DNA of 31,159 nt from the IMG/VR virus record IMGVR_UViG_3300048839_001331, positions 1-31,159 of that record; one strand, written 5' to 3'. This DNA comes from a virus. This document shows, piece after piece, positions 5,380 through 26,515 of this stretch; within the stretch, counting starts at the first letter, position 1; each line of letters begins with the position of its first letter. The position numbers and the translations under genes are program-made. The notes under the pieces were generated by a model. That model saw only the letters and a program-made list of their open reading frames with translations. It made no database searches and was not told where the DNA came from.

Positions 5380-5395
5380 TGTTCGCGGGCGAACA
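5380..5395. promoter_or_regulatory. 16-bp palindrome, parS-like site 1
   Basis: TGTTCGCGGGCGAACA: 7-base arms separated by GG, in the gap between the tail tube and tail chaperone genes. This is the only one of five copies outside a gene. It resembles Bacillus parS (TGTTnCACGTGnAACA pattern) in length, symmetry and the outer TGTT/AACA. It is a candidate ParB or repressor binding site; a weak hairpin effect on mRNA is an alternative. Confidence 0.55.
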
Positions 5396-12643: not shown

Positions 12644-13042
12644 CTAACCTCCGTAGTTGGCTGGGTTAGGAAAAAACACGGCTTGGGAAGGCTCTGCTTT
12701 TTCGTGCCAGGTAATGGTCCGGCAACCCCACCAAATTTCAGGCTGACCCGGCCGGGCTGGGGTGTGGTGGGTGTAAGGGTCGGAAATGTGAAAAACCTTG
12801 CTAAACACTTCATCAACCAAAACGGTGAGCAAAGCGTGGACAATATCTACCTCTTTTTGGGAGGGATAAATGGGGTTATCTGCTTTGGTTGATTTGCGGG
12901 ATAACGTTAGGCGATTTTTGTTTTCCTGATAAGAAAAGGCCAAAAACAAGCCACGTTGTAGGGATTTTTTTACTGGCACGCGGCTTTTTATCATTTCTTC
13001 TAAAATGCGGCGTAGGTAATTGGTGTAGCGGGGGTTAGACAT
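12644..13042 (-). CDS. protein of unknown function
   Basis: A 132-residue protein, not recognised. A basic helical N-terminus ('RYTNYLRRILEEMIKSRVPVKKSLQRG') is followed by a Lys/Arg/Ser stretch and a helix rich in V/L ('EVDIVHALLTVLVDEVFSKVFHI'). The C-terminus has aromatic and Trp residues ('EIWWGCRTITWHEK'). GGAGG precedes the ATG, and the start overlaps the end of the ParB-like gene by eight bases, so the two are probably co-translated. Confidence 0.65.
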   Translation of the reverse strand: MSNPRYTNYLRRILEEMIKSRVPVKKSLQRGLFLAFSYQENKNRLTLSRKSTKADNPIYPSQKEVDIVHALLTVLVDEVFSKVFHISDPYTHHTPARPGQPEIWWGCRTITWHEKAEPSQAVFFPNPANYGG

Positions 13043-14921
13043 GATTTGCCTCCGCTATTTTTAGGCCAAAATGGTCAAAAATGGGCTTCAGGGCGTTTAG
13101 CTCGTCGGCCGATAGCTCGGTGACATCTTGAGCAACCATCAGTACCCATTCACGAGGGACATCACGGCTGGCGTGGGAGCCGTACCAGCGATTGATGAGC
13201 CAGTGGGTTATGTCCGTGATTGAAAAATGTAGTTCTGGAAGGGGAATGTTCGTTTTTTTACTATGCTCAACTAAAAAATCATACCGTTGGTTAGTAGCCC
13301 AATAGCTTTTTTCGGGAACAGCTAGATTGGGGCTGATGCTGGCAAGGCAAAAAACAAGCAGATATTGCCAGTCTGTCATCTGTTTAATGGTGCTGGCGGT
13401 TAGGTGTGGTTGGACATTTTTTAGCCAGTCTGTGGTGGTTTGGCGAAGCAGGGCGATACCCTCGGCCGGATTCTTAAACTTACTCATTATCTCCTTTGCT
13501 AAATCTTCGGCATAAAAGGTAATGAGCCGGTTAGCCACATCGCGGGCTTTTTTGTCATAGGCCGTGTAGTTAGGGGCTTTTGGTGCGGCCGGGGTAGCTT
13601 CGTTTTTCTTGTCTATGTACCACGATTGGATTTTTTGGGCGTGTTCTGCGGAAGCAGGGGCAACGGCCAGAATCTCGCTTGGGAAACTAATGCCTGATGA
13701 AGAGTGTACCCATGACTGACCAAGCGGCCGGGTAGCATAGCCGGAAAAAGCCACGCCTATTAACATTTCTGGGTCATTGCGATGAGCTAAGGCATATTCA
13801 ATGAGGGCGGAGTAGTGAACCATATTTTCAGAGGTTAAATTCTCCCCTACCCATTGGTAGCCTGGGAATCTCTTTTGGGCTTCAGCTTTGCTCCATGCCA
13901 ACATTTTGGCGCGGAAGCAGGTTTGGTTAAGGCAATATTCATCCCCGCCTATTTTTTGTTTAGCGGGGCATTGCTTGCAGGTGGCTTGCAAAACCTCGCC
14001 CTCCTCCCCTAGAGTTTCGCTTTTGAGCGCGGGGGGAAGCTCGCGTCCGGCCGCTTCGGCAAACTCGCTGAGGTAACGGCGAATATCATCCCGTCCGATT
14101 TTGTCACCATGAGTCAGGACATAGTTGTAATAATCTTGGGGGTGGGGAGGGTGAGAATATTCACCGTTATGGCGTTCACCATCCCATTTACCCACTACCC
14201 AGGTGGAGCCATCAGCAGAGAAGGAAAATGATTTTATGCGGGCCAGAGCCAGTAGTTCCTCACAGTGGGATTGGCTTATTTTTCCGGCCATATTTGCCTG
14301 TTGCGCGTCTTCAGGTAAATCTCGCAAACGCCACAGGTTACGGGCGCGGCTCTCTGACATCTTTAGAAGCGCGGCTACATCCTTCAGTGTGGCAGTCTGA
14401 CCAAGTAAATTAAAGGCGTGGCGCATGTATTCTAAATCTTCAACGGCCGATTGGTTTTTGCGGGCAAAATTCTCTGTGCGTACCTCAGCGAGCATTTGCT
14501 CGTTGGGTAGTTGAATCACATCGAGAGGGATAAGGCCATGAGCGTACCGTTCGTCATTTTTGGCTAGGTAACGGATAGCCCGTACCCGACGATGGGCCAT
14601 GATAAGCTGTATACGATAGCCAACTTTTTCCCATGCTTGCCGTAAGCGGTCGGCATAGGTGGGAACAGCCTCGGCCGCGGGGAGGGAAGTGAGAAATAAC
14701 TTCTTTTCTATGATGAGCTTATTAGCTTCGCTGTAGCCGGGAACATCGGTTCCCATCACCAAGCGTCCCTGTGGTGGCACTTGCAAGCCCATTGTTTCCG
14801 GCCGGGATTCGATATAGGGCGCAATGTCCTGCGTAGCAAATTCGGCAATATCCGAGTAGTCACGGTGAGGTGATTGAAAGGGGTTGTCATCTATAAATTC
14901 AAGGGGGACATAAATTCTCAC
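13035..14921 (-). CDS. ParB-like DNA-binding protein with cysteine cluster
   Basis: A 628-residue protein with a ParB/Spo0J-type layout in its first third. The nucleotide-binding-type segment includes 'AHRRVRAIRYLA' (109-120, GERR-box position) and 'ENFARKNQSAVEDLEYMR' (150-167, ENLQR-box position). An HTH follows at about 178-207 ('TLKDVAALLKMSESRARNLWRL'), then 'GKISQSHCEELLAL'. A cysteine cluster, C-x2-C (315, 318) with C-x4-C (330, 335), probably binds a metal. The large C-terminal half is helical and unrecognised. The start is the GTG at 14921, because AGGAGGT fits it and not the later ATG. ParB proteins load on parS sites as clamps for DNA segregation or regulation. No ParA ATPase gene is present in this genome. 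Confidence 0.75.
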   Translation of the reverse strand: MRIYVPLEFIDDNPFQSPHRDYSDIAEFATQDIAPYIESRPETMGLQVPPQGRLVMGTDVPGYSEANKLIIEKKLFLTSLPAAEAVPTYADRLRQAWEKVGYRIQLIMAHRRVRAIRYLAKNDERYAHGLIPLDVIQLPNEQMLAEVRTENFARKNQSAVEDLEYMRHAFNLLGQTATLKDVAALLKMSESRARNLWRLRDLPEDAQQANMAGKISQSHCEELLALARIKSFSFSADGSTWVVGKWDGERHNGEYSHPPHPQDYYNYVLTHGDKIGRDDIRRYLSEFAEAAGRELPPALKSETLGEEGEVLQATCKQCPAKQKIGGDEYCLNQTCFRAKMLAWSKAEAQKRFPGYQWVGENLTSENMVHYSALIEYALAHRNDPEMLIGVAFSGYATRPLGQSWVHSSSGISFPSEILAVAPASAEHAQKIQSWYIDKKNEATPAAPKAPNYTAYDKKARDVANRLITFYAEDLAKEIMSKFKNPAEGIALLRQTTTDWLKNVQPHLTASTIKQMTDWQYLLVFCLASISPNLAVPEKSYWATNQRYDFLVEHSKKTNIPLPELHFSITDITHWLINRWYGSHASRDVPREWVLMVAQDVTELSADELNALKPIFDHFGLKIAEANHV

Positions 14922-14935
14922 GGTTTACCTCCTGT

Positions 14936-15781
14936 TTAGTATGTTCCGTTTAGGTTCAGGCGTTTTTTGCGCTCTGAAATGGTGCTGGCAGAAATGTTTA
15001 GCCGCTCTGCTAAACCAGTTTGGTTAAGTTCGGCGGTAATGTGGTTAAGTAAGATGGCGCGGTCTATTTCGTCCATTGCTTCAATGGCCTTACGGTAAAT
15101 TTGGAGTGCCTTTAGATGGGCTACAGCGTCTCTTAGCTTCTCTTCGGCCGCTTTCGCTTGGGATTCGGCTAGATTTGCTTGGGATTCGGCCGCTTTCGCT
15201 TGCTCTTTGGCGGTATTCGCTTCTTCTTCGGCCGCTTTTAGCTGGGATTTAGCAAGGGTTAAATCGCTTTGGGCTTCTGTTAGCTGGCTGGTTAGCCGGG
15301 CAATGGTAGCTAGGGCGGCGCGAAGTTTTTTAATGAGGCCGCGGCCGCGCCGCTTGCTATCCCGCCGTCGGTTGTCACCGGTAACTGTTCGCCCGCGAAC
15401 TTCTTCAGCTCGCCACGCCACCAGCAAAATGAGACCGGGGGCCACGGCCGCATAAACAACGGCTTCAAAGGAGAAGGTGGCTAGGCCACCCTCCCCATTG
15501 TAAAAAGCGTACTGGAGCAAAAAGCTGAGGGCGGTTGTAAACCCAGCGGCCACGCGCCAAACCCAGCGGCCGCTACTCACAGCTTCTCTGACCGAGCGGT
15601 AATGTGATAAATCCACCACAATGGCAATGGCGGCCGCTACAGGTAACGGGTCTCCGTGTCGGCCGAGAGCCTCAAAATAGTGATAAATGGTTGAGAGCAA
15701 AATAACGGGGATAACGTTCACCTCTTCTAAGAAGTCGCTCAACGCTTCCCATTTTTTGCCCATGTTGCTAAACAAGCTCAT
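14936..15781 (-). CDS. four-helix membrane protein with coiled coil and C-terminal helix-turn-helix
   Basis: A 281-residue protein. Four probable transmembrane helices lie near 23-40, 46-63, 73-93 and 105-123. An Arg/Lys-rich cytoplasmic stretch (129-150) is followed by a long Ala/Glu/Lys/Gln heptad coiled coil (about 155-225). The C-terminal HTH (about 242-275; 'TGLAERLNISASTISERKKRL') carries a clear recognition-helix pattern. It would tether DNA to the inner membrane. It overlaps the upstream membrane gene and lies 14 bases from the ParB-like gene, so the three probably act together. GAGGT precedes the ATG. I know no named family with this order of parts. Confidence 0.75.
   Translation of the reverse strand: MSLFSNMGKKWEALSDFLEEVNVIPVILLSTIYHYFEALGRHGDPLPVAAAIAIVVDLSHYRSVREAVSSGRWVWRVAAGFTTALSFLLQYAFYNGEGGLATFSFEAVVYAAVAPGLILLVAWRAEEVRGRTVTGDNRRRDSKRRGRGLIKKLRAALATIARLTSQLTEAQSDLTLAKSQLKAAEEEANTAKEQAKAAESQANLAESQAKAAEEKLRDAVAHLKALQIYRKAIEAMDEIDRAILLNHITAELNQTGLAERLNISASTISERKKRLNLNGTY
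15142..15246 (-). repeat. five imperfect 21-bp tandem repeats in a coiled-coil gene
   Basis: Five consecutive 21-base units (15142-15162, 15163-15183, 15184-15204, 15205-15225, 15226-15246), each with a core like TTCGGCCGCTTTCGCTT. They encode the heptads (AKAAESQ-type) of the coiled coil. Copy number change would lengthen or shorten the coiled coil in exact heptads. Confidence 0.8.
15386..15401. promoter_or_regulatory. 16-bp palindrome, parS-like site 2 (one mismatch)
   Basis: TGTTCGCCCGCGAACT on the plus strand, i.e. the same palindrome as site 1 on the minus strand with one outer base changed. It lies inside the membrane-HTH gene, about 460 bases from the ParB-like gene. Confidence 0.45.
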
Positions 15782-16871
15782 GTGTTACCTCGCTTAAATT
15801 GATTTCTATGCCAGCGTTGGCTAAAACTCCCCTCACCCATGCCTCTTGTTTTTTAGAAGCTCGTTTACCGTCAGCTTTGTAGCAATGGCTGGCGATGGCT
15901 GTCACACTGCGACAAATATTTGTGTGCCAAAGGTGAAGCATGTATTTTTGTTGCCATTCATCTGGCTCGGTAGCAATGCTCCATGGGAGTTTTACCTCTC
16001 GGCCGTCAAACAGTTCGTAGGCCCCGGCCGGGGTTGGAATTGGTTCTGAACTGTGCGGAATAAATTCCGCACTACCTGGTGAAAAAATCTGTTCTTCTCT
16101 GGTGGAATTGATTCCGAACTGTGCGGAACTGTGCGGAATAGGGGCATTTAGTGCATTTGTGACCGGCCGGGCAGGTGGGGGGGAAAGGGTGATTGTGGGT
16201 TTTTGAAGTGCCTTGTAGTTTGCCATGTGAACGGCGGTCATTGTCCACGCCACTATGCCAAAACAGACAGCTACCCAACCAACTAAGCCCACTGCGATAA
16301 GAGCGACTAGGCCAATGACGATTTGGGCTAGGGGGGAAAAGGTGGCTACTAGATTGGCTGTAGCCCGTTCTTTTTCTAAGGCCAGTTGGTTTTGTTCGCC
16401 GGCGAGAGCCACGGCCGTGCTGGTGGCGAGTAGGGCGGTTTGGGTAGCTAGGGCGTTATTCTCTACCTCACGGGCTTGGGCAGTAGCTTGGGCTACGGCT
16501 TGCCACCGCTCTATGTCATTGGTGAGAGCTATGCGCTCGTTTTCCAAACTCATCTGCTCGCGGAGTAGGGCGTTTTTTTGCTGTTGGTCGGCTTGGGCTA
16601 TCTCATTTGCCATGCGGGTCAACTCTAAGTCAATGGCCGCCCGTTGGTTCTCTAGCTCTAGCCGCTCATCCTGATTGGCTACGAAGTCACTCACGGCCGG
16701 GGTGGTTAGGGGTGAGGGAGCGAGTGGAGTTTGGCGAAAAACTGCTAACATACAGGCTACGAAGGGCACCGCCAGAAAAACGAACAGGAAAAAGCGGGAA
16801 GCTCGTCCCCCGGCCGGGGGTGCTGGCTGGTCAATGTCTAAATCGTCGTATTCGGTGTTTTTGTATCCCAT
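15768..16871 (-). CDS. two-helix membrane protein with extracytoplasmic coiled coil
   Basis: A 367-residue protein of unknown family. The acidic, Pro-rich N-terminus is followed by TM1 (about 27-45), a long Glu/Gln/Ala/Thr coiled coil (66-175), TM2 (181-212) and a cytoplasmic C-terminal part. That part has a Pro/Ser linker with repeated 'IPHSS' and a folded end ('YELFDGREVKLPWSIATEPDEWQQKYMLHLWH...'). The middle coiled coil would lie outside the membrane. The 'ATAQAREVENNALATQTALLATSTA' type of composition is common in Chloroflexota membrane proteins. AGAGAGG precedes the ATG. It overlaps the membrane-HTH gene by 14 bases, suggesting a two-protein membrane complex. Confidence 0.7.
   Translation of the reverse strand: MGYKNTEYDDLDIDQPAPPAGGRASRFFLFVFLAVPFVACMLAVFRQTPLAPSPLTTPAVSDFVANQDERLELENQRAAIDLELTRMANEIAQADQQQKNALLREQMSLENERIALTNDIERWQAVAQATAQAREVENNALATQTALLATSTAVALAGEQNQLALEKERATANLVATFSPLAQIVIGLVALIAVGLVGWVAVCFGIVAWTMTAVHMANYKALQKPTITLSPPPARPVTNALNAPIPHSSAQFGINSTREEQIFSPGSAEFIPHSSEPIPTPAGAYELFDGREVKLPWSIATEPDEWQQKYMLHLWHTNICRSVTAIASHCYKADGKRASKKQEAWVRGVLANAGIEINLSEVTHELV
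16053..16140. repeat. cluster of GTGCGGAA repeats and a palindrome
   Basis: A perfect inverted repeat, GTGCGGAAT-AA-ATTCCGCAC, lies at 16053-16072. Tandem copies GTGCGGAACT and GTGCGGAATA lie at 16121-16140, with ATTCCGAACT just before at 16111. All are within the linker of the membrane coiled-coil gene. It could be a protein-binding cluster or simply repeat growth in a loosely constrained linker. Confidence 0.5.
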
Positions 16872-17290: not shown

Positions 17291-18280
17291 TCATTCCAGC
17301 CAATAGTTAACAGCATCCCAAAAACGAGCCTTGACATGGCGTTGCCTCGAATGAGGGTTAAAAACGAAATGAGTGTGTAACCGTCCTTTGCGTGGCATGT
17401 GTTCGTAGTAGAGACGTTGCTTACTTTTCCGCTGGGAACCCACGCGGTCATCGGGGACGGCCGCGCTCACCTGCTGTGATTGACTAAGGTGTGCTAACTT
17501 TTGTTGTAAGTGCTTTCTACTGCGCTTGACTGTGGGCAAAGAGGGGTTGTAGGAGTTGCCGATTTGTCGGCAAATAAGGAGCTTGGTGGGGGGGGTGGTG
17601 TTCGCGGGCGAACATTCCCCGTTGACATCATTGAACACAAAAGCGGGGCCGCCGAGGTGTTCTTTGTGGCTCTCGCCAAAGCTGTATGATTCCGCTTCTT
17701 CAGCTTTTACCTGTTGCCATGTGGGGATGCTGTAGCGGCTGATGATGGCGAAGTTTGATTTTTTCCCTACGCCTCGTTTTTGTTCGTATTTGCGTTGAGT
17801 GCGTCGCTCTACCTGGGTGTGTTCGGTGATGGTTTGGCGAGCAATGGGCTTGCTATCCCCATCCCCTGCCCGGCCAGAGTGCCCTGCATCGTAAAACAAG
17901 GCTCGGACGGCAGTTATACCGGCGGTGAGTTGGTTAACAGGTAGGGCGATAGCCCAGCCTGTGACCCGCAATGCTTGCTGGTCATTTAGGGTGTACAAAA
18001 CGCGGGCCTCGCTGTGGTAGTGAAGCCATTCCCCGCAGGTGGAGCGGTGCCAGAAGATATTTTCCCCTTTTGCGAGCAGTTGCCGGACCCGCGCCCAGCC
18101 CATTTTGCAATAAAGCTCGCTTTCTTTGGTGGTAAAGAGGGTGCGAATAGAGGTGACTGGCAACCGGCCGGACCCGCGCCGGTCTATGTGGCGCATGAGT
18201 GCCCACAACCGGCCGGGGTTTTCTAGGCCATGTTTTTGTATGGCCGCGCATGTTTGCCCGAAAAGTTTGACAGTGTTCAT
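17291..18280 (-). CDS. putative tandem winged-helix DNA-binding protein, candidate replication initiator
   Basis: A 329-residue protein. Residues about 22-95 look like a first winged helix ('LWALMRHIDRRGSGRLPVTSIRTLF...RVRQLLAKGENIFWHR', then a strand). Residues about 115-175 look like a second ('VRALFYDAG...KPIARQTITEHTQVERRTQRKYEQ'). The C-terminal half is basic and poorly structured. Two successive winged helices are typical of plasmid-type replication initiators, and no other initiator, helicase or polymerase was found here, so a role in replication is plausible. It may equally be a regulator. AGAGG precedes the ATG. A parS-like palindrome lies inside it at 17599. Confidence 0.5.
   Translation of the reverse strand: MNTVKLFGQTCAAIQKHGLENPGRLWALMRHIDRRGSGRLPVTSIRTLFTTKESELYCKMGWARVRQLLAKGENIFWHRSTCGEWLHYHSEARVLYTLNDQQALRVTGWAIALPVNQLTAGITAVRALFYDAGHSGRAGDGDSKPIARQTITEHTQVERRTQRKYEQKRGVGKKSNFAIISRYSIPTWQQVKAEEAESYSFGESHKEHLGGPAFVFNDVNGECSPANTTPPTKLLICRQIGNSYNPSLPTVKRSRKHLQQKLAHLSQSQQVSAAVPDDRVGSQRKSKQRLYYEHMPRKGRLHTHFVFNPHSRQRHVKARFWDAVNYWLE
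17599..17614. promoter_or_regulatory. 16-bp palindrome, parS-like site 3
   Basis: Exact TGTTCGCGGGCGAACA, inside the winged-helix protein gene. Confidence 0.5.
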
Positions 18281-19742: not shown

Positions 19743-20807
19743 TTACTCCTTTAGCTCTAGGTGAACTGTTACGTTAACTGTGACATTGACCACACACCCT
19801 ACCCGCTCTAGCCGTTGCTTTAATTCCATAATTTGCTGTAAGAGGTCAGTGGGATGGGGAGCGGTTGGCTCTTCTTTTGTTTCGGCCGGGGCGGATTGTT
19901 CTGGTGGAGCTGGTAGTTCTGGTGGTGTTCGCGGGCGAACAGTGGGCAAGCCGGCTTGGGCAAAGGCTTTTTTGATGGTTTTTATGGTGTAACCGGCTTT
20001 TTGTTCTAACGTAGCCAGAGGGGAGCCGCTGAGGTAGAGCTGGTTTAGTTCGTTAAGTTGCTCTGGTGTCCATTTGGGCGGCGGGGGTTCTTTGCGTGAC
20101 CCGCGCAAGGGCAAGCCGTGTTTTTGGAACTGGTAGTAAAGAACGTGTTCTGGGAGCTTCCAGTCTCTGGAGATGTGAGACATTGGCTCTTCGTTCATAT
20201 ACCGCCGGTGAACTTCTTCTACCTGGGCGACGGTGAGGTGAACCGCCTCCTTTTTTTGTTTTTGAGGGGGCTTGACCACGGCCGGGGTGGGCGGTTTGGG
20301 AGCGGCTAGAGCGATGGGTTTTTTTTCTGGCTTATCGGTGGGGCGCGGTTGGTTTGGTGCCACGGCCGGGGTGGGGTTGATTTGGGTAGTTTTGCGGAAC
20401 TCTGCGCGGCGTTCCTCTAGTTGCTCGTCTAACAAAATGAGTAGCCCGGTGCTATTGAATAGTTGCTCTAGCTCTGTGAGCTTTTTGCGGCAACTGGCGA
20501 GTAGTAGCTCGCGGGGGGATACACCACTTTTGTATAGTTCGTACCAGTAAATGATGTGGTCACGGCTGGCCTCGCTGAGTTGGATAAATTTCTCTTCTCT
20601 CTCATCGTTAGACACTAGCTCTAGGTTGTGGCGGGTAAAGATATTGAGTAAATCTTTGTAGTTGTGGCCGGTGATTTGCTCTAGGTGTGAGGCTGGTACA
20701 CCTGTTTTATAGTGGGTGTACCAGCGGCCGATGTGTGGGGTATCTTGCCCGTTATCGCGAAAAATGATTGTGGGGGGGGCTGGTGTGGCCCCGTTGGTGG
20801 TGGTCAT
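19743..20807 (-). CDS. protein with four helix-turn-helix-like repeats
   Basis: A 354-residue protein. Four repeats share the pattern W/Y-x-x-Y-x-x-G-x-P-x-x-x-L-(x)n-G-L at about 26-64, 83-125, 193-235 and 248-292, for example 'YTHYKTGVPASHLEQITGHNYKDLLNIFTRHNL' split over the first. Each reads as a homeodomain-like HTH. A Pro/Lys-rich linker (140-190) separates the pairs. The C-terminus has a short coiled coil (321-336) and an alternating beta strand (VVNVTVNVTVHLELK) that may drive oligomerisation. Multiple DNA contacts by one chain would suit origin binding, DNA looping or a Cox-like excision factor. AAAGGA precedes the ATG. I know no named family with this architecture. Confidence 0.6.
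   Translation of the reverse strand: MTTTNGATPAPPTIIFRDNGQDTPHIGRWYTHYKTGVPASHLEQITGHNYKDLLNIFTRHNLELVSNDEREEKFIQLSEASRDHIIYWYELYKSGVSPRELLLASCRKKLTELEQLFNSTGLLILLDEQLEERRAEFRKTTQINPTPAVAPNQPRPTDKPEKKPIALAAPKPPTPAVVKPPQKQKKEAVHLTVAQVEEVHRRYMNEEPMSHISRDWKLPEHVLYYQFQKHGLPLRGSRKEPPPPKWTPEQLNELNQLYLSGSPLATLEQKAGYTIKTIKKAFAQAGLPTVRPRTPPELPAPPEQSAPAETKEEPTAPHPTDLLQQIMELKQRLERVGCVVNVTVNVTVHLELKE
19926..19941. promoter_or_regulatory. 16-bp palindrome, parS-like site 4
   Basis: Exact TGTTCGCGGGCGAACA, inside the four-HTH-repeat gene. Confidence 0.5.
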
Positions 20808-21608: not shown

Positions 21609-22640
21609 ATGATTTTGCGCGAAGCCGTTGATAGGTTTTTGATGTTGCTAAAAGAAAAAGGAGGGTCAGAAGCCCACCTGAAGCGGACCCGCCACGCGCT
21701 GATGCTGGTGGTGGAGCGATGGGGTAAGGCAGAGGTAAGAACGATTAAGCGAGGTGAATTGGTTGATTTTTGCCATGCCCTGCACCGCAAGGACGGCCGG
21801 GCATATGCTAAGGCGAGTAGGGCGGGGATTCACCGAGCCATAAAGTCTTTTTTCCGCTGGGCGGAAAAGAAGAAGCTGGTGGAGAAAAATCCGGCTAAGA
21901 AGTTACCTGCTTATGATTACACCCCTACCCGTGACCGAAGCATCCCGGCCGGGGAACTGCGGAAGCTGATGGGAGCTATTGAGCCGTTGGTGGCTCGTTA
22001 CCGGGGAAGCAGGGCAAAAAAAACAGCGTATGCCAGAGATGTTAGGGATGCGCTTATTGTTTGCCTGGTGTTGGATAGCTCTGGTCGGCGGGGTGAGGTG
22101 AACAATATAGAGCGGGGTGAGGCGGAGCGGGCGTTGCGTTACCCGGTGGAGGTGGATTTTTTAGACGGCCGGGGGATGAAGCATAAGGGGCATGTCTACC
22201 CTATCTCTACCTGGGGGAAAACGGATAATGCCCAGCTGGTGATGACTGAACGCACGGCCGAGTTGCTGAGGGAGTGGTTAAGGCTGACACCCAAAGCGGT
22301 TTGGCTTTTTACCAGTGAGAAAACGGGCCGGGCTATTGACCCGCGTAGTATTAACCGTGCTTTTGAGAAATTATGTAAATTTGCTAAGATTCCCACTTAT
22401 CACCCTCACAGTATCCGCAAGAGAAACATCACTGACTTGGCCCGTAGTGCTGATACACAAACCGCCTCTAAGGTGGCGGGGCACAAGGACATTAACGTGA
22501 CTTTGAAGCATTACATCATGGCTGACGGCGGCCGGGTGCAAGCGGCCGCGCTGATGCTTAACCATGAAAGAGAGGGGGATAATCGCCCTAGTGACGAAGA
22601 TTTGTTGGGTAACTTTTTCCGCCACGCGGGGGGAAATTAG
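21609..22640 (+). CDS. int: tyrosine recombinase (phage integrase)
   Basis: A 343-residue site-specific recombinase that should catalyse integration at, and excision from, the attP site about 110 bases downstream. The N-terminal SAM-like core-binding domain (about 1-95) includes 'AYAKASRAGIHRAIKSFFRWAEKKKLVEKNP'. The catalytic domain shows Arg160 (SSGRRGE), Lys204 (TWGKTDN), His267-x-x-Arg270 (HSIRKR), His292 (AGHKD) and the nucleophile Tyr302 (LKHYI). All expected catalytic residues are present, so it is likely active. AAGGAG precedes the ATG at seven bases. The gene is followed by an inverted repeat, an intrinsic terminator and attP. Confidence 0.93.
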   Translation: MILREAVDRFLMLLKEKGGSEAHLKRTRHALMLVVERWGKAEVRTIKRGELVDFCHALHRKDGRAYAKASRAGIHRAIKSFFRWAEKKKLVEKNPAKKLPAYDYTPTRDRSIPAGELRKLMGAIEPLVARYRGSRAKKTAYARDVRDALIVCLVLDSSGRRGEVNNIERGEAERALRYPVEVDFLDGRGMKHKGHVYPISTWGKTDNAQLVMTERTAELLREWLRLTPKAVWLFTSEKTGRAIDPRSINRAFEKLCKFAKIPTYHPHSIRKRNITDLARSADTQTASKVAGHKDINVTLKHYIMADGGRVQAAALMLNHEREGDNRPSDEDLLGNFFRHAGGN

Positions 22641-22835: not shown

Positions 22836-23348
22836 GTGAAAAAAGTAGGTTGGTCACTGCTGTTTGGTTTGTTCGCTATTTGTGGTTCGTGTTTTTGTTT
22901 GGGGTTGGCTGTGAACGTTGGTCAGGAGTTGGGTATTTTGCCCACAAGAACACCCCGACCAACCGAATCACCCCCTGACACTCCTTTGCCGACGGCAACG
23001 GAGACAGATACGCCCACGCCCAGCTTGACCCCGTTGCCAACGGATACTTTGTTGCCGACTAAAACGGCAACGAGTACACCGACGGGAACGGCAACATTAA
23101 CTCCTGCTTTGACATCTACCCCTACTCTGAGGGCGACTATCCCACCCACTCGGCCGCCCGCGCCTTCTCCTACCCAACCACCTACCTCAGCCGAGGTGTG
23201 TGATTGCAGTGGTGATGTTTACAAGTGCGATGATTTTAAGAACACGCCCTTTACAGGCCAGGCTTGTTTTAATTATTGCATGGAGCAGGGGCGAGGGGAC
23301 ATTCATCGGCTTGATGGCGATGGGGATGGCCTTGTATGTGAAAACTAA
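22836..23348 (+). CDS. secreted or anchored protein with Thr/Pro linker and Excalibur-like domain
   Basis: A 170-residue protein starting with GTG after AGAGGTAGG. The N-terminus is a signal-type segment (MKKVGWSLLFGLFAICGSCFC); it lacks a clean lipobox, so it may be a membrane anchor. A Thr/Pro-rich linker (about 35-120) is typical of Chloroflexota surface proteins. The C-terminal domain has six cysteines and the Ca-binding-like motif DGDGDGLVCE (159-168), matching the Excalibur domain. It lies just outside the attP core and ends before a terminator, so in the prophage it would be an edge gene downstream of the tRNA. It is a candidate lysogenic-conversion gene acting at the cell surface. Confidence 0.75.
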   Translation: MKKVGWSLLFGLFAICGSCFCLGLAVNVGQELGILPTRTPRPTESPPDTPLPTATETDTPTPSLTPLPTDTLLPTKTATSTPTGTATLTPALTSTPTLRATIPPTRPPAPSPTQPPTSAEVCDCSGDVYKCDDFKNTPFTGQACFNYCMEQGRGDIHRLDGDGDGLVCEN

Positions 23349-23454: not shown

Positions 23455-23691
23455 TTATTCCGCAGGGGCAAATTCCAATAAATCGGAAAGCGAGCAGTCA
23501 AAAAACTTACACAAGCGAATCAGAGTATCCTCGTCATAGCGGCGGATTGTTCCGTTTGCATATGAGGAAAGAATAGAGGTTGATACACCTGTTTCCGCGT
23601 AAATTTCCCGAAAAGAAATATTGCGGCCGGTTTGTTGCTCTTTTTTTGCCCTGAGAATCTTGAAGTTGTTTCTTATTTTTTCTTCAGTCAT
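23455..23691 (-). CDS. Xre-family repressor (putative lysogeny regulator)
   Basis: A 78-residue protein with one Cro/CI-type HTH at about 25-50 ('SFREIYAETGVSTSILSSYANG') and a short C-terminal helical part ('DTLIRLCKFFDCSLSDLLEF') typical of small Xre proteins. It has no peptidase domain, so it would not be cleaved like LexA. The ATG at 23691 has AGAGGT upstream; a longer in-frame reading from 23832 would run through the promoter and is rejected. Its own promoter (23714-23742) faces away from the early promoter at 23784, and palindromes lie in both. That is the layout of an immunity switch. Confidence 0.8.
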   Translation of the reverse strand: MTEEKIRNNFKILRAKKEQQTGRNISFREIYAETGVSTSILSSYANGTIRRYDEDTLIRLCKFFDCSLSDLLEFAPAE

Positions 23692-23713
23692 GGCATACAC
23701 CTCTTTAATTTCT

Positions 23714-23742
23714 ATTCTATAGGGCGCGTCGTGACTTGTCAA
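23714..23742 (-). promoter_or_regulatory. repressor promoter
   Basis: On the minus strand TTGACA (23742-23737) and TAGAAT (23719-23714) are separated by exactly 17 bases, a near-consensus sigma-70-type promoter. Its -35 overlaps the left arm of the ACTTGTC/GACAAGT operator. Confidence 0.8.
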
Positions 23743-23805
23743 CCGTTTGGAGTGACAAGTTAAAACGAATTTTACAAAAAGTATTGACAAATGTCTCGAC
23801 ATGTC
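23734..23805. promoter_or_regulatory. operator cluster of the immunity region
   Basis: Three symmetric elements share GACA/TGTC half-sites: ACTTGTC (23734-23740) with GACAAGT (23754-23760), GACAAATGTC (23786-23795) and GACATGTC (23798-23805). The last two are centred about 11 bases apart, one helical turn, and lie in the spacer of the rightward promoter. The first overlaps the leftward -35. They are likely repressor sites. Confidence 0.65.
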
Positions 23806-23812
23806 GTAACAT
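23784..23812 (+). promoter_or_regulatory. rightward early promoter
   Basis: TTGACA (23784-23789), 17-base spacer, TAACAT (23807-23812). It drives the early operon from 23896. Palindromic operators fill its spacer. Confidence 0.8.
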
Positions 23813-23830
23813 ACACCTATTAGACAAAAC

Positions 23831-23870
23831 AAAAGACCCCGCCCGAACTACCAATCCAGAGGGGTCTTTT
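23831..23870. terminator. hairpin in the early leader, possible attenuator
   Basis: Ten-base arms AAAAGACCCC (23831-23840) and GGGGTCTTTT (23861-23870) with a 20-base loop, lying between the early promoter and its first gene. The T run is short (four). It may be an attenuator that needs antitermination, or a stabilising leader hairpin. Confidence 0.6.
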
Positions 23871-23895
23871 ATCACAAAAACACACGAGGTGTAAA

Positions 23896-24360
23896 ATGTT
23901 AAATTCAATCGTAACCCCAAATAATCAACCTGTCAATCAAATATCTTTGGCCGATTTCCACTGCTGGCTAACAGACAATTTTGGCGATGCTTGCGCCACT
24001 ATTGAGTTTGCTGGGGCCACTAATGAGGGTATCCCCTTTGTCCATGCAGTGGGCTTAGATGAGGTTTCTGCCGGGCAATATTTTTTTGAGTATGACGCTT
24101 TGGTAAACGGCCGGGTAATAACTTTTGCTGGCGCACATACGGCCGCTGGTTTGGCGCGGGCTATTGTGGAGCTGGATAGTGTGGTGAGTTTCACCTGCTA
24201 TGAAGCTGGGGATTTAGAGCCTGTCACTGTGGGTTCACTGAACAGCGGGCAAGTGTTCGCGGTGGTGGAAGATGAGTTAGAAGTGTTCGCGGGCGAACAC
24301 AACGCTCTGGCTCTCTTCCCTGAGTTTGCCCATCTTTCCCCTGCTGAGTTGCCTTTCTAG
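23896..24360 (+). CDS. early protein of unknown function
   Basis: A 154-residue, acidic, strand-rich protein, not recognised ('SLADFHCWLTDNFGDACATIEFAG', 'QYFFEYDALVNGRVITFAGAHTAAGLARAIVELDSVVSFTCYEAGD'). It is the first gene after the early promoter and leader hairpin, with GAGGTG before the ATG. It has no membrane segment and no obvious DNA-binding motif. First genes of early operons often counter host functions, but this is only an inference from place. It contains a parS-like palindrome near its end. Confidence 0.65.
   Translation: MLNSIVTPNNQPVNQISLADFHCWLTDNFGDACATIEFAGATNEGIPFVHAVGLDEVSAGQYFFEYDALVNGRVITFAGAHTAAGLARAIVELDSVVSFTCYEAGDLEPVTVGSLNSGQVFAVVEDELEVFAGEHNALALFPEFAHLSPAELPF
24284..24299. 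promoter_or_regulatory. 16-bp palindrome, parS-like site 5
   Basis: Exact TGTTCGCGGGCGAACA near the end of the first early gene. The following bases CAAC also match site 1. A half-site, TGTTCGCG, lies at 24254. Confidence 0.5.
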
Positions 24361-25942: not shown

Positions 25943-25974
25943 CACAATTTGTTAACCTCGGTTAACAAATTGTG
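25943..25974. repeat. perfect 32-bp palindrome in the early/late gap
   Basis: Arms CACAATTTGTTAACC (25943-25957) and GGTTAACAAATTGTG (25960-25974) match over 15 bases around TC. An overlapping palindrome TGTGCGCACA lies at 25937-25946, and CAGGC/GCCTG pair outside. AT-rich cruciform potential fits an operator or a replication-origin element; no iterons were seen. Confidence 0.7.
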
Positions 25975-26092: not shown

Positions 26093-26098
26093 TTGATT

Positions 26099-26515
26099 AT
26101 GTTTTTGTATAAGCTAAACGCGGATACCGCAGAGATTGCGGTTAATGATATTGTTTATCAGGTATCCCTAGCCCAGGCTGAAAAGCTGGCGCGGGATATT
26201 TTGGCGCGTTTGGCCCCGGCCCCGGCCGGGGAGCTTTCGCCTATGGCGCGGCGTATTCTTAACACGGTGTACACCCATAAAAAGGCTAATGGGGGTAATA
26301 ACCCTAGTTTGCGGGAATTGTGTGACAAGCTCCAGTTTCGTTCTTATCAGGCGATTGAGCCGTATTTGAATGAGTTGGAAGCGGCTGGTTGGTTGCTTCG
26401 GCCGGATGGGCGCAAGGCGCGGGGTTTTGATTGGGGTGGGGATTACACTCCACCGGCGCGGCCGTTTCGTGTTGTTCACCGGCGAGTACGGCCGGGGTAT
26501 GTTAGGGGGAAATGA
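26099..26515 (+). CDS. LexA-type winged-helix protein, first gene of the late operon
   Basis: A 138-residue protein. The central domain (about 46-110: 'LSPMARRILNTVYTHKKANGGNNPSLRELCDKLQFRSYQAIEPYLNELEAAGWLLRPDGRKARG') matches the LexA N-terminal DNA-binding fold. There is no LexA peptidase domain. The N-terminal 40 residues are a small alpha/beta segment. The start is the ATG at 26099, where a leaderless transcript would begin; a TTG at 26093 is in frame. It overlaps the small terminase gene (ATGA). It may regulate the late promoter or assist DNA packaging. Confidence 0.7.
   Translation: MFLYKLNADTAEIAVNDIVYQVSLAQAEKLARDILARLAPAPAGELSPMARRILNTVYTHKKANGGNNPSLRELCDKLQFRSYQAIEPYLNELEAAGWLLRPDGRKARGFDWGGDYTPPARPFRVVHRRVRPGYVRGK

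Follow-up and report, generated by a model that had tools for sequence, protein, structure and literature searches.

We have identified, in the genome of a phage, a ParB-like protein that is encoded without a ParA ATPase and that is very likely matched to a 16-bp parS-like sequence scattered over the same genome, a pairing backed by comparison among related elements in the absence of binding data. In our main reading, to which we give a probability of roughly 0.62, this ParB would load at its own scattered sites, clamp onto the DNA and spread, and would mark or organize the DNA of the element that encodes it. The comparisons support three parts of this reading (the pairing of ParB with its site, the restriction of each site to its element, and the absence of ParA); the remainder is inferred, as discussed below.

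The phage genome and its probable host

The window (the whole stretch of DNA analyzed) is virus record IMGVR_UViG_3300048839_001331, 31,159 bases long, and it encodes terminase, portal, head, tail and tape-measure proteins, a Rad52-like protein, and the following:

21609-22640: tyrosine integrase
22836-23348: Pro/Thr-rich secreted-type protein
near 23691: true start of an Xre-type repressor gene

No direct terminal repeat was found in the window. A 27-bp hairpin, AACTGCTCCGCTTAAAGCGGAGCAGTT, lies at positions 1-27, exactly at the contig start, and a near-perfect 32-bp inverted repeat, CACAATTTGTTAACCTCGGTTAACAAATTGTG, lies at 25943-25974, upstream of a LexA-HTH-like gene (26093-26515).

The hexamer CGGCCG occurs 127 times in the window against 7.6 expected, a HIP1-like overrepresentation; the excess is common to loci of two Anaerolineae genomes, G367 and G397 (about 5-8x), and is seen again in an IMG/VR phage contig, L016 (64 against 7.0 expected), so that it may serve as a useful host signature. 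Because the Pro/Thr-rich protein and the CGGCCG signature common to the G367 and G397 loci point in this direction, we infer from sequence alone that the host of the phage is a Chloroflexota bacterium. Relatives of the phage recognized by their major capsid protein (L017-L035) have neither the ParB nor the 16-mer.

A repeated 16-mer of parS layout

The sequence TGTTCGCGGGCGAACA occurs exactly at four positions in the window, and a fifth copy differs from it by one mismatch:

5380-5395, plus strand: parS-like site TGTTCGCGGGCGAACA, 5 bp past the stop of the tail-tube gene, between that gene and the next
15386-15401, minus strand: parS-like site that differs by one mismatch (AGTTCGCGGGCGAACA); it lies in the gene at 14936-15781 and precedes the parB start codon by 465 bp
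17599-17614, plus strand: parS-like site TGTTCGCGGGCGAACA, inside the open reading frame 17291-18280
19926-19941, plus strand: parS-like site TGTTCGCGGGCGAACA, inside the open reading frame 19743-20807
24284-24299, plus strand: parS-like site TGTTCGCGGGCGAACA, inside the open reading frame 23896-24360

The sites recur every 2-12 kb. When up to three mismatches are allowed, 10 strand matches to TGTTCGCGGGCGAACA are found, compared with 0.25 expected and a maximum of 2 in 100 shuffles, and with the exception of one CCCCGG family this is the most repeated inverted repeat with 6-8 bp arms in the window. Each site consists of two 7-bp arms (TGTTCGC and GCGAACA in TGTTCGCGGGCGAACA) on either side of a central GG; all five copies share this GG and are identical over the inner 14 bases, GTTCGCGGGCGAAC.

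A first-pass annotation of the window had reported these five copies, four exact and one with a single mismatch, as far above chance, dispersed, and with four of the five inside genes; it had also described a ParB-like protein with a cysteine cluster and no ParA ATPase. All of this held, the last part by way of ParB models and a Walker-A scan (see below). Its description of the 16-mer as an exact palindrome failed in part, the two arms flanking an invariant GG that keeps the whole from being perfectly palindromic, and the likeness to parS that it saw in length, symmetry and outer TGTT/AACA held as to the layout GTT-N8-AAC.

Several simpler explanations of the repeat were considered and set aside. 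The flanks of the five copies have nothing in common, which rules out a larger dispersed repeat as their source. The four intragenic copies are read in three different codon phases and yield different peptides (EVRGRT, CSPANT, TVRPRT and VFAGEH), so that coding constraint is rejected and it is the DNA word, not a peptide, that is under selection or being copied. An intrinsic terminator is disfavored by the intragenic position of four of the five copies and by the absence of a T-run after them.

The ParB-like protein and the genes beside it

The features of the parB region are as follows:

13035-14921, minus strand: parB-like gene, 628 amino acids, GTG start
about residues 150-230 of its product: helix-turn-helix (HTH)
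residues 315-335 of its product: Cys4 cluster CKQC...CLNQTC, pattern CxxC-N11-CxxxxC
further motifs of its product: NPxQ, a Box II-like AHRRVRA and a Box III-like ENFARKN
14936-15781, minus strand: gene immediately upstream of parB; its product has a hydrophobic N-terminal half, an Ala-rich coiled coil and an HTH at the C-terminus
15768-16871, minus strand: membrane-protein gene overlapping the start of 14936-15781; its product has a hydrophobic N-terminus, a stretch of coiled coil and a pair of transmembrane segments (about 172-210)

The open reading frame is recognized as ParB-like by the models HTH_ParB and TIGR00180, and the protein continues in a long, unassigned C-terminal part beyond the Cys4 cluster. 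The ParB HTH domain PF17762 scores 24.8 bits against a cut-off of 22.6 (a borderline 21.7 bits in another search) in the window ParB and 52-72 bits in its relatives; PF02195, the N-terminal ParB-CTPase fold that holds Boxes I-III, is detected in relatives L194 (7.5e-11) and G212 (7.6e-8) and not in the window protein, which is the most divergent member of the family (PF02195 undetected, and the G of Box II replaced by A). Across the family alignment the columns NPxQ, H.R..A and EN..R are conserved, Boxes II and III are retained, and the four-cysteine cluster is invariant. One ParB relative matches solved Noc structures over the CTPase fold and HTH at 3e-27. The window protein itself scores only 20.2 bits with the NCBIfam Noc model TIGR04285 (cut-off 315), and its conserved P-L-x-x-I is preceded by only 5 residues, which leaves no room for the N-terminal membrane-binding amphipathic helix of Noc. 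An AlphaFold2 model built from two sequences had a pLDDT of 38 and was unusable.

No deviant Walker-A motif of the ParA type is encoded in the window, where the only Walker A belongs to the large terminase, nor in the related elements of G367, G405 or the G622 region described below; the G212 stretch has one, at 242 kb, outside the integrase that we take as the edge of the element. The ParA-binding motif [LFI]G[KR]G[LFI] (PMC12704722) is absent from every ParB family member tested.

Related elements carry their own dispersed palindromes

Direct searches of phages, plasmids, IMG/VR and GTDB returned no close relative of the window ParB. Among 396 genomes of the class to which an Anaerolineaceae MAG belongs, two clear relatives, which cover residues 1-342, came up in G397 and G367, together with weaker ones; a phylum-wide search with the ParB family alignment added G622. 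In all, five sets of elements with a Cys4 ParB (the window and four further Chloroflexota sets) each have a repeated 16-bp GTT-N8-AAC palindrome. The first-pass annotation had suggested looking in related phages and hosts for the same 16-mer beside parB; what we found in the relatives are other words of the same layout.

In G367 the ParB relative sits in a prophage with tail genes, and the palindrome shared with G397 is TGTTGGCGCGCCAACA. All 17 copies of TGTTGGCNNGCCAACA in this 6-Mb genome lie inside two related prophages, seven on contig C14 and ten on the end of C45 plus C107 (two contigs that overlap by 127 bp); G397 has one palindrome copy, on its parB contig. The palindrome of G212 is CGTTTCYGTRGAAACG, present three times, once inside parB, and the only three copies of CGTTTCNNNNGAAACG in the 3.7-Mb genome are at C23:220-236 kb, around parB. 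The IMG/VR phage G405 carries GTTTGCGCGCAAAC four times in 53 kb, one copy being just upstream of the parB start. The G622 element (17 kb, integrated between host genes) encodes an integrase and ParB and contains six GTTTGCGCGCAAAC copies, out of seven in the whole 6.7-Mb genome (the seventh is on contig C170), and none occurs in eight other genomes. G405 and G622, which are unrelated elements, thus have the same palindrome, TGTTTGCGCGCAAACA. In Markov-shuffled controls, three equal palindromes arose in at most 1 of 60.

Every set has a site inside parB, adjoining it or no more than about 1.5 kb away. Neighboring sites are 2-18 kb apart, with the exception of one G622 pair separated by 56 bp, and a clustered centromere beside par genes was not found, the sites being dispersed. 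The sites of the ten-site G367 prophage are spaced more evenly than expected at random (P 0.008 for the minimum gap, P 0.005 for the CV); in the seven-site prophage the evenness is marginal. A repeated palindrome of parS layout was not found in four further family members, G358 (40 kb) and the short contigs G299, G034 and G364, nor was a repeated palindrome found with the more distant ParBs of cyanophages Sc-Yong805-1 and Nsp-JY21, and scans of viral contigs with the G358 and G212 ParBs gave no match. Within the G622 ParB element, tandem 18-bp palindromic repeats (ACGATCA...) at C106:249926-250013 are possibly iterons.

Membrane or coiled-coil genes adjoin parB in the window, G367, G405 and G622. 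The gene at 14936-15781 resembles the parB neighbor of the G367 prophages in architecture, without significant sequence similarity, and no homology was detectable among the membrane/coiled-coil neighbors of the window, G367 and G405. The position comparable to that of 15768-16871, whose product has no P-loop, is held in G367 and G622 by a membrane FtsK/HerA-like ATPase (a call resting on a sub-threshold Pfam match in G367, and on a P-loop and sequence in G622). These proteins adjoin parB at G367 C107:31924-33921 and G622 C106:246740-248188; a similar one is found at C14:34291-35964, without parB.

A host repeat or the Xre operator?

Two alternatives named in the first-pass annotation as able to refute its proposal, a common host repeat and the site of the Xre repressor, could be tested by sequence; both came out negative, and the proposal survives. 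Under the first, the 16-mer would be a host or composition-driven repeat (HIP1-like, or an unrelated operator of the host) that has nothing to do with ParB. In its favor, CGGCCG is a second, massively repeated word in the window. Against it, TGTTCGCGGGCGAACA is absent from five Anaerolineae genomes carrying ParB relatives and is a single match, in scattered phyla, in every GTDB stretch listed; moreover, the palindromes of the relatives are almost restricted to the elements (17 of 17, 3 of 3 and 6 of 7 sites) in host genomes of 3.7-6.7 Mb. We regard this alternative as all but excluded. Twelve IMG/VR contigs with one TGTTCGCGGGCGAACA each have no protein match to the window and look like chance matches.

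As an Xre operator the 16-mer is rejected both by its position and by the presence of a different dyad in the repressor region: the intergenic region 23692-23895 contains no copy even at three mismatches, and it does contain a TGTCTCGACATGTCG dyad overlapping a promoter-like TTGACA...TAACAT. This dyad is the likely Xre operator, an inference from its sequence and position.

Which protein binds the palindrome

The link between ParB and the palindrome, at first a guess, is now strongly supported by comparison, because the two occur together in all five element sets and because the residues that determine specificity covary with the site. In the numbering G1 T2 T3 T4 C5 A6 for parS, R173 contacts G1, and R201 contacts C6 with K/R at 179 or 184 (PMC7383237). 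The half-sites here are G1-T-T-C4-G5-C6 in the window, G-T-T-G-G-C in G367, G-T-T-T-G-C in G405 and G622, and G-T-T-T-C-C in G212. We mapped the specificity residues by eye on an alignment to Noc. The ParBs of G367, G405 and G622 have R173, R201 and K/R179, and their sites carry G1 and C6; those of G405 and G622 match at the specificity positions (R173, K179, R/K184, R201) and use the same palindrome, whereas the G367 ParB departs from them in the second part of its HTH, and its site carries G at position 4. The ParBs of the window (E173, S201) and of G212 (E173, H201) fall outside the published contact code, which therefore fits only three of the five.

The sites are also maintained, as judged from a comparison of the G367 prophages with their G397 relative: five aligned pairs of sites are identical at 16 of 16 positions, with flanks at 75-96%, and a sixth pair at 15 of 16. 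This comparison leaves out the window copies, for which no close relative was found.

A referee may object that the palindrome is bound by the membrane/coiled-coil/HTH neighbor or by the FtsK/HerA-like ATPase, with ParB merely linked. The observation in favor of this, and against the pairing with ParB, is the G367 prophage on C14, which retains seven sites and both membrane neighbors and in which parB was not found. The C14 palindrome is the same word as in the co-resident prophage that does carry parB, so that ParB supplied in trans, or a recent loss of the gene, would account for it. Against the objection, no DNA-binding family other than ParB was seen in all five sets, since the G212 element has ParB and sites without any membrane/HTH neighbor beside parB; further, the neighbors are not detectably homologous between elements whereas ParB is, and it is the ParB residues that covary with the site. 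We consider this alternative very unlikely. The C14 prophage (32-83 kb) shares about 80-93% identity with the ParB-bearing one in the parts that can be aligned, and where parB and its neighbor would lie it has, at 32489-33862, a protein with a DnaA-like C-terminal segment.

Proposed mode of action and competing functions

Binding, nucleotide-gated clamp closure and spreading are the working mode of ParB, Noc and KorB (PMC12704722, PMC8429893, PMC11790492), and the window ParB is likely to be a spreading clamp of this kind, its CTP binding and clamping being inferred. In the model that we propose, a ParB dimer would bind the 16-mer through its central HTH, would most likely close into a CTP-gated clamp and would slide off the site, to be replaced by further clamps; clamps loaded at sites every 2-12 kb would coat much of the phage genome. 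They would mark and organize the DNA of the element in the manner of Noc, probably contacting the membrane proteins encoded beside parB. Such a membrane link is plausible as an inference from the gene neighborhood, and long-range silencing like that of KorB is another possible output. The first-pass annotation had offered marking or compaction, gene regulation, and segregation without ParA as functions; the choice among them is undecided, with marking or organization favored by inference.

One competing view is that ParB is a KorB-like global repressor that silences phage promoters at a distance and keeps the prophage quiet, with no role in organizing or anchoring DNA. KorB, a CTP clamp of the ParB family, exerts silencing from operators that lie kilobases away (PMC11790492), the sites here are dispersed and mostly not at promoters, and the A1 profile weakly matches KorB structures (4e-6). 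Against this, no KorA-like partner was identified, the phage already encodes an Xre repressor with its own dyad, and the fairly even, intragenic sites suit coverage better than promoter control. Because of this spacing and position we lean, by inference and with modest confidence, toward coverage or organization over pure repression, and we place the repressor view clearly behind.

Classical ParABS segregation is unlikely, given the absence of ParA and the intragenic position of four of the five sites. A further view is ParA-independent partition of an extrachromosomal form, with a membrane ATPase or a host factor in place of ParA. For it speak the FtsK/HerA-like ATPase beside parB in G367 and G622, a partial P-loop ATPase upstream of the G034 parB, and the lack of the ParA-binding motif throughout the family members tested; against it, integrases are encoded by the window phage and by the elements of G367, G212 and G622 (the last three lie in chromosomal contigs), and the window membrane protein lacks a P-loop. 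We think it improbable. A bolder reading, which we offer only as a possibility, is that temperate phages and integrated elements have a ParA-independent means of positioning DNA. In it, a ParB clamp with a zinc cluster, loaded at evenly dispersed sites specific to the element, would cover the element entirely and would be coupled to a membrane-anchored FtsK/HerA-like ATPase, or an ATPase-less counterpart, in the place of ParA, each element having its own orthogonal ParB-site code.

Whatever the function, several phage-type orphan ParBs are now matched, from sequence alone, to DNA sites, and the pairs can be put to direct tests. With sites that carry C, G or T at position 4 and G or C at position 5, the matches widen the range of sequences covered by the ParB/Noc recognition code, and they could supply new orthogonal ParB-parS pairs for labeling DNA in cells.

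Comparison with known systems

The closest likeness is to Noc of Bacillus and its NBS sites, also a ParB-family protein without ParA whose 16-bp palindromic sites are scattered rather than clustered; the best solved-structure matches of the relatives are to Noc, and the R201-C6 code is common to three of the ParBs. The present system differs from Noc in being phage-encoded, with sites only on the phage, and in its Cys4 cluster and long C-terminal part; there is no room for the N-terminal amphipathic helix, and a membrane link could come instead from neighboring genes. KorB of the IncP plasmid RK2 and its OB operators, of which RK2 has 12 (reference title cited in PMC11790492), likewise pair a clamp of the ParB family with several operators spread across a mobile element, but KorB has ParA (IncC) and KorA partners, neither of which was found here, where most sites are intragenic. 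Plasmid-prophage ParABS systems (P1, mycobacteriophage RedRock) share a phage-encoded ParB with cognate sites, which in RedRock are parS loci of eight direct 8-bp repeats (PMC7157519); here, in contrast, there is no ParA, ParA-binding motif or clustered centromere, and an integrase is present.

A 2025 survey (PMC12704722) found that orphan ParBs occur widely, with enrichment on mobile elements, and that what they do is for the most part open. The proteins described here resemble those orphans in having a ParB fold outside parAB operons, on mobile elements, without a ParA-binding motif; they differ in that element-specific sites have been identified, no cognate sites of phage orphan ParBs being described in the relevant passages of that survey. 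ParB, Noc, KorB and the orphan ParBs of mobile elements were thus known already, and what appears new, within the literature that we searched and as an inference from sequence alone, is that phage ParBs without ParA form a family whose members are matched to dispersed parS-like sites specific to each element.
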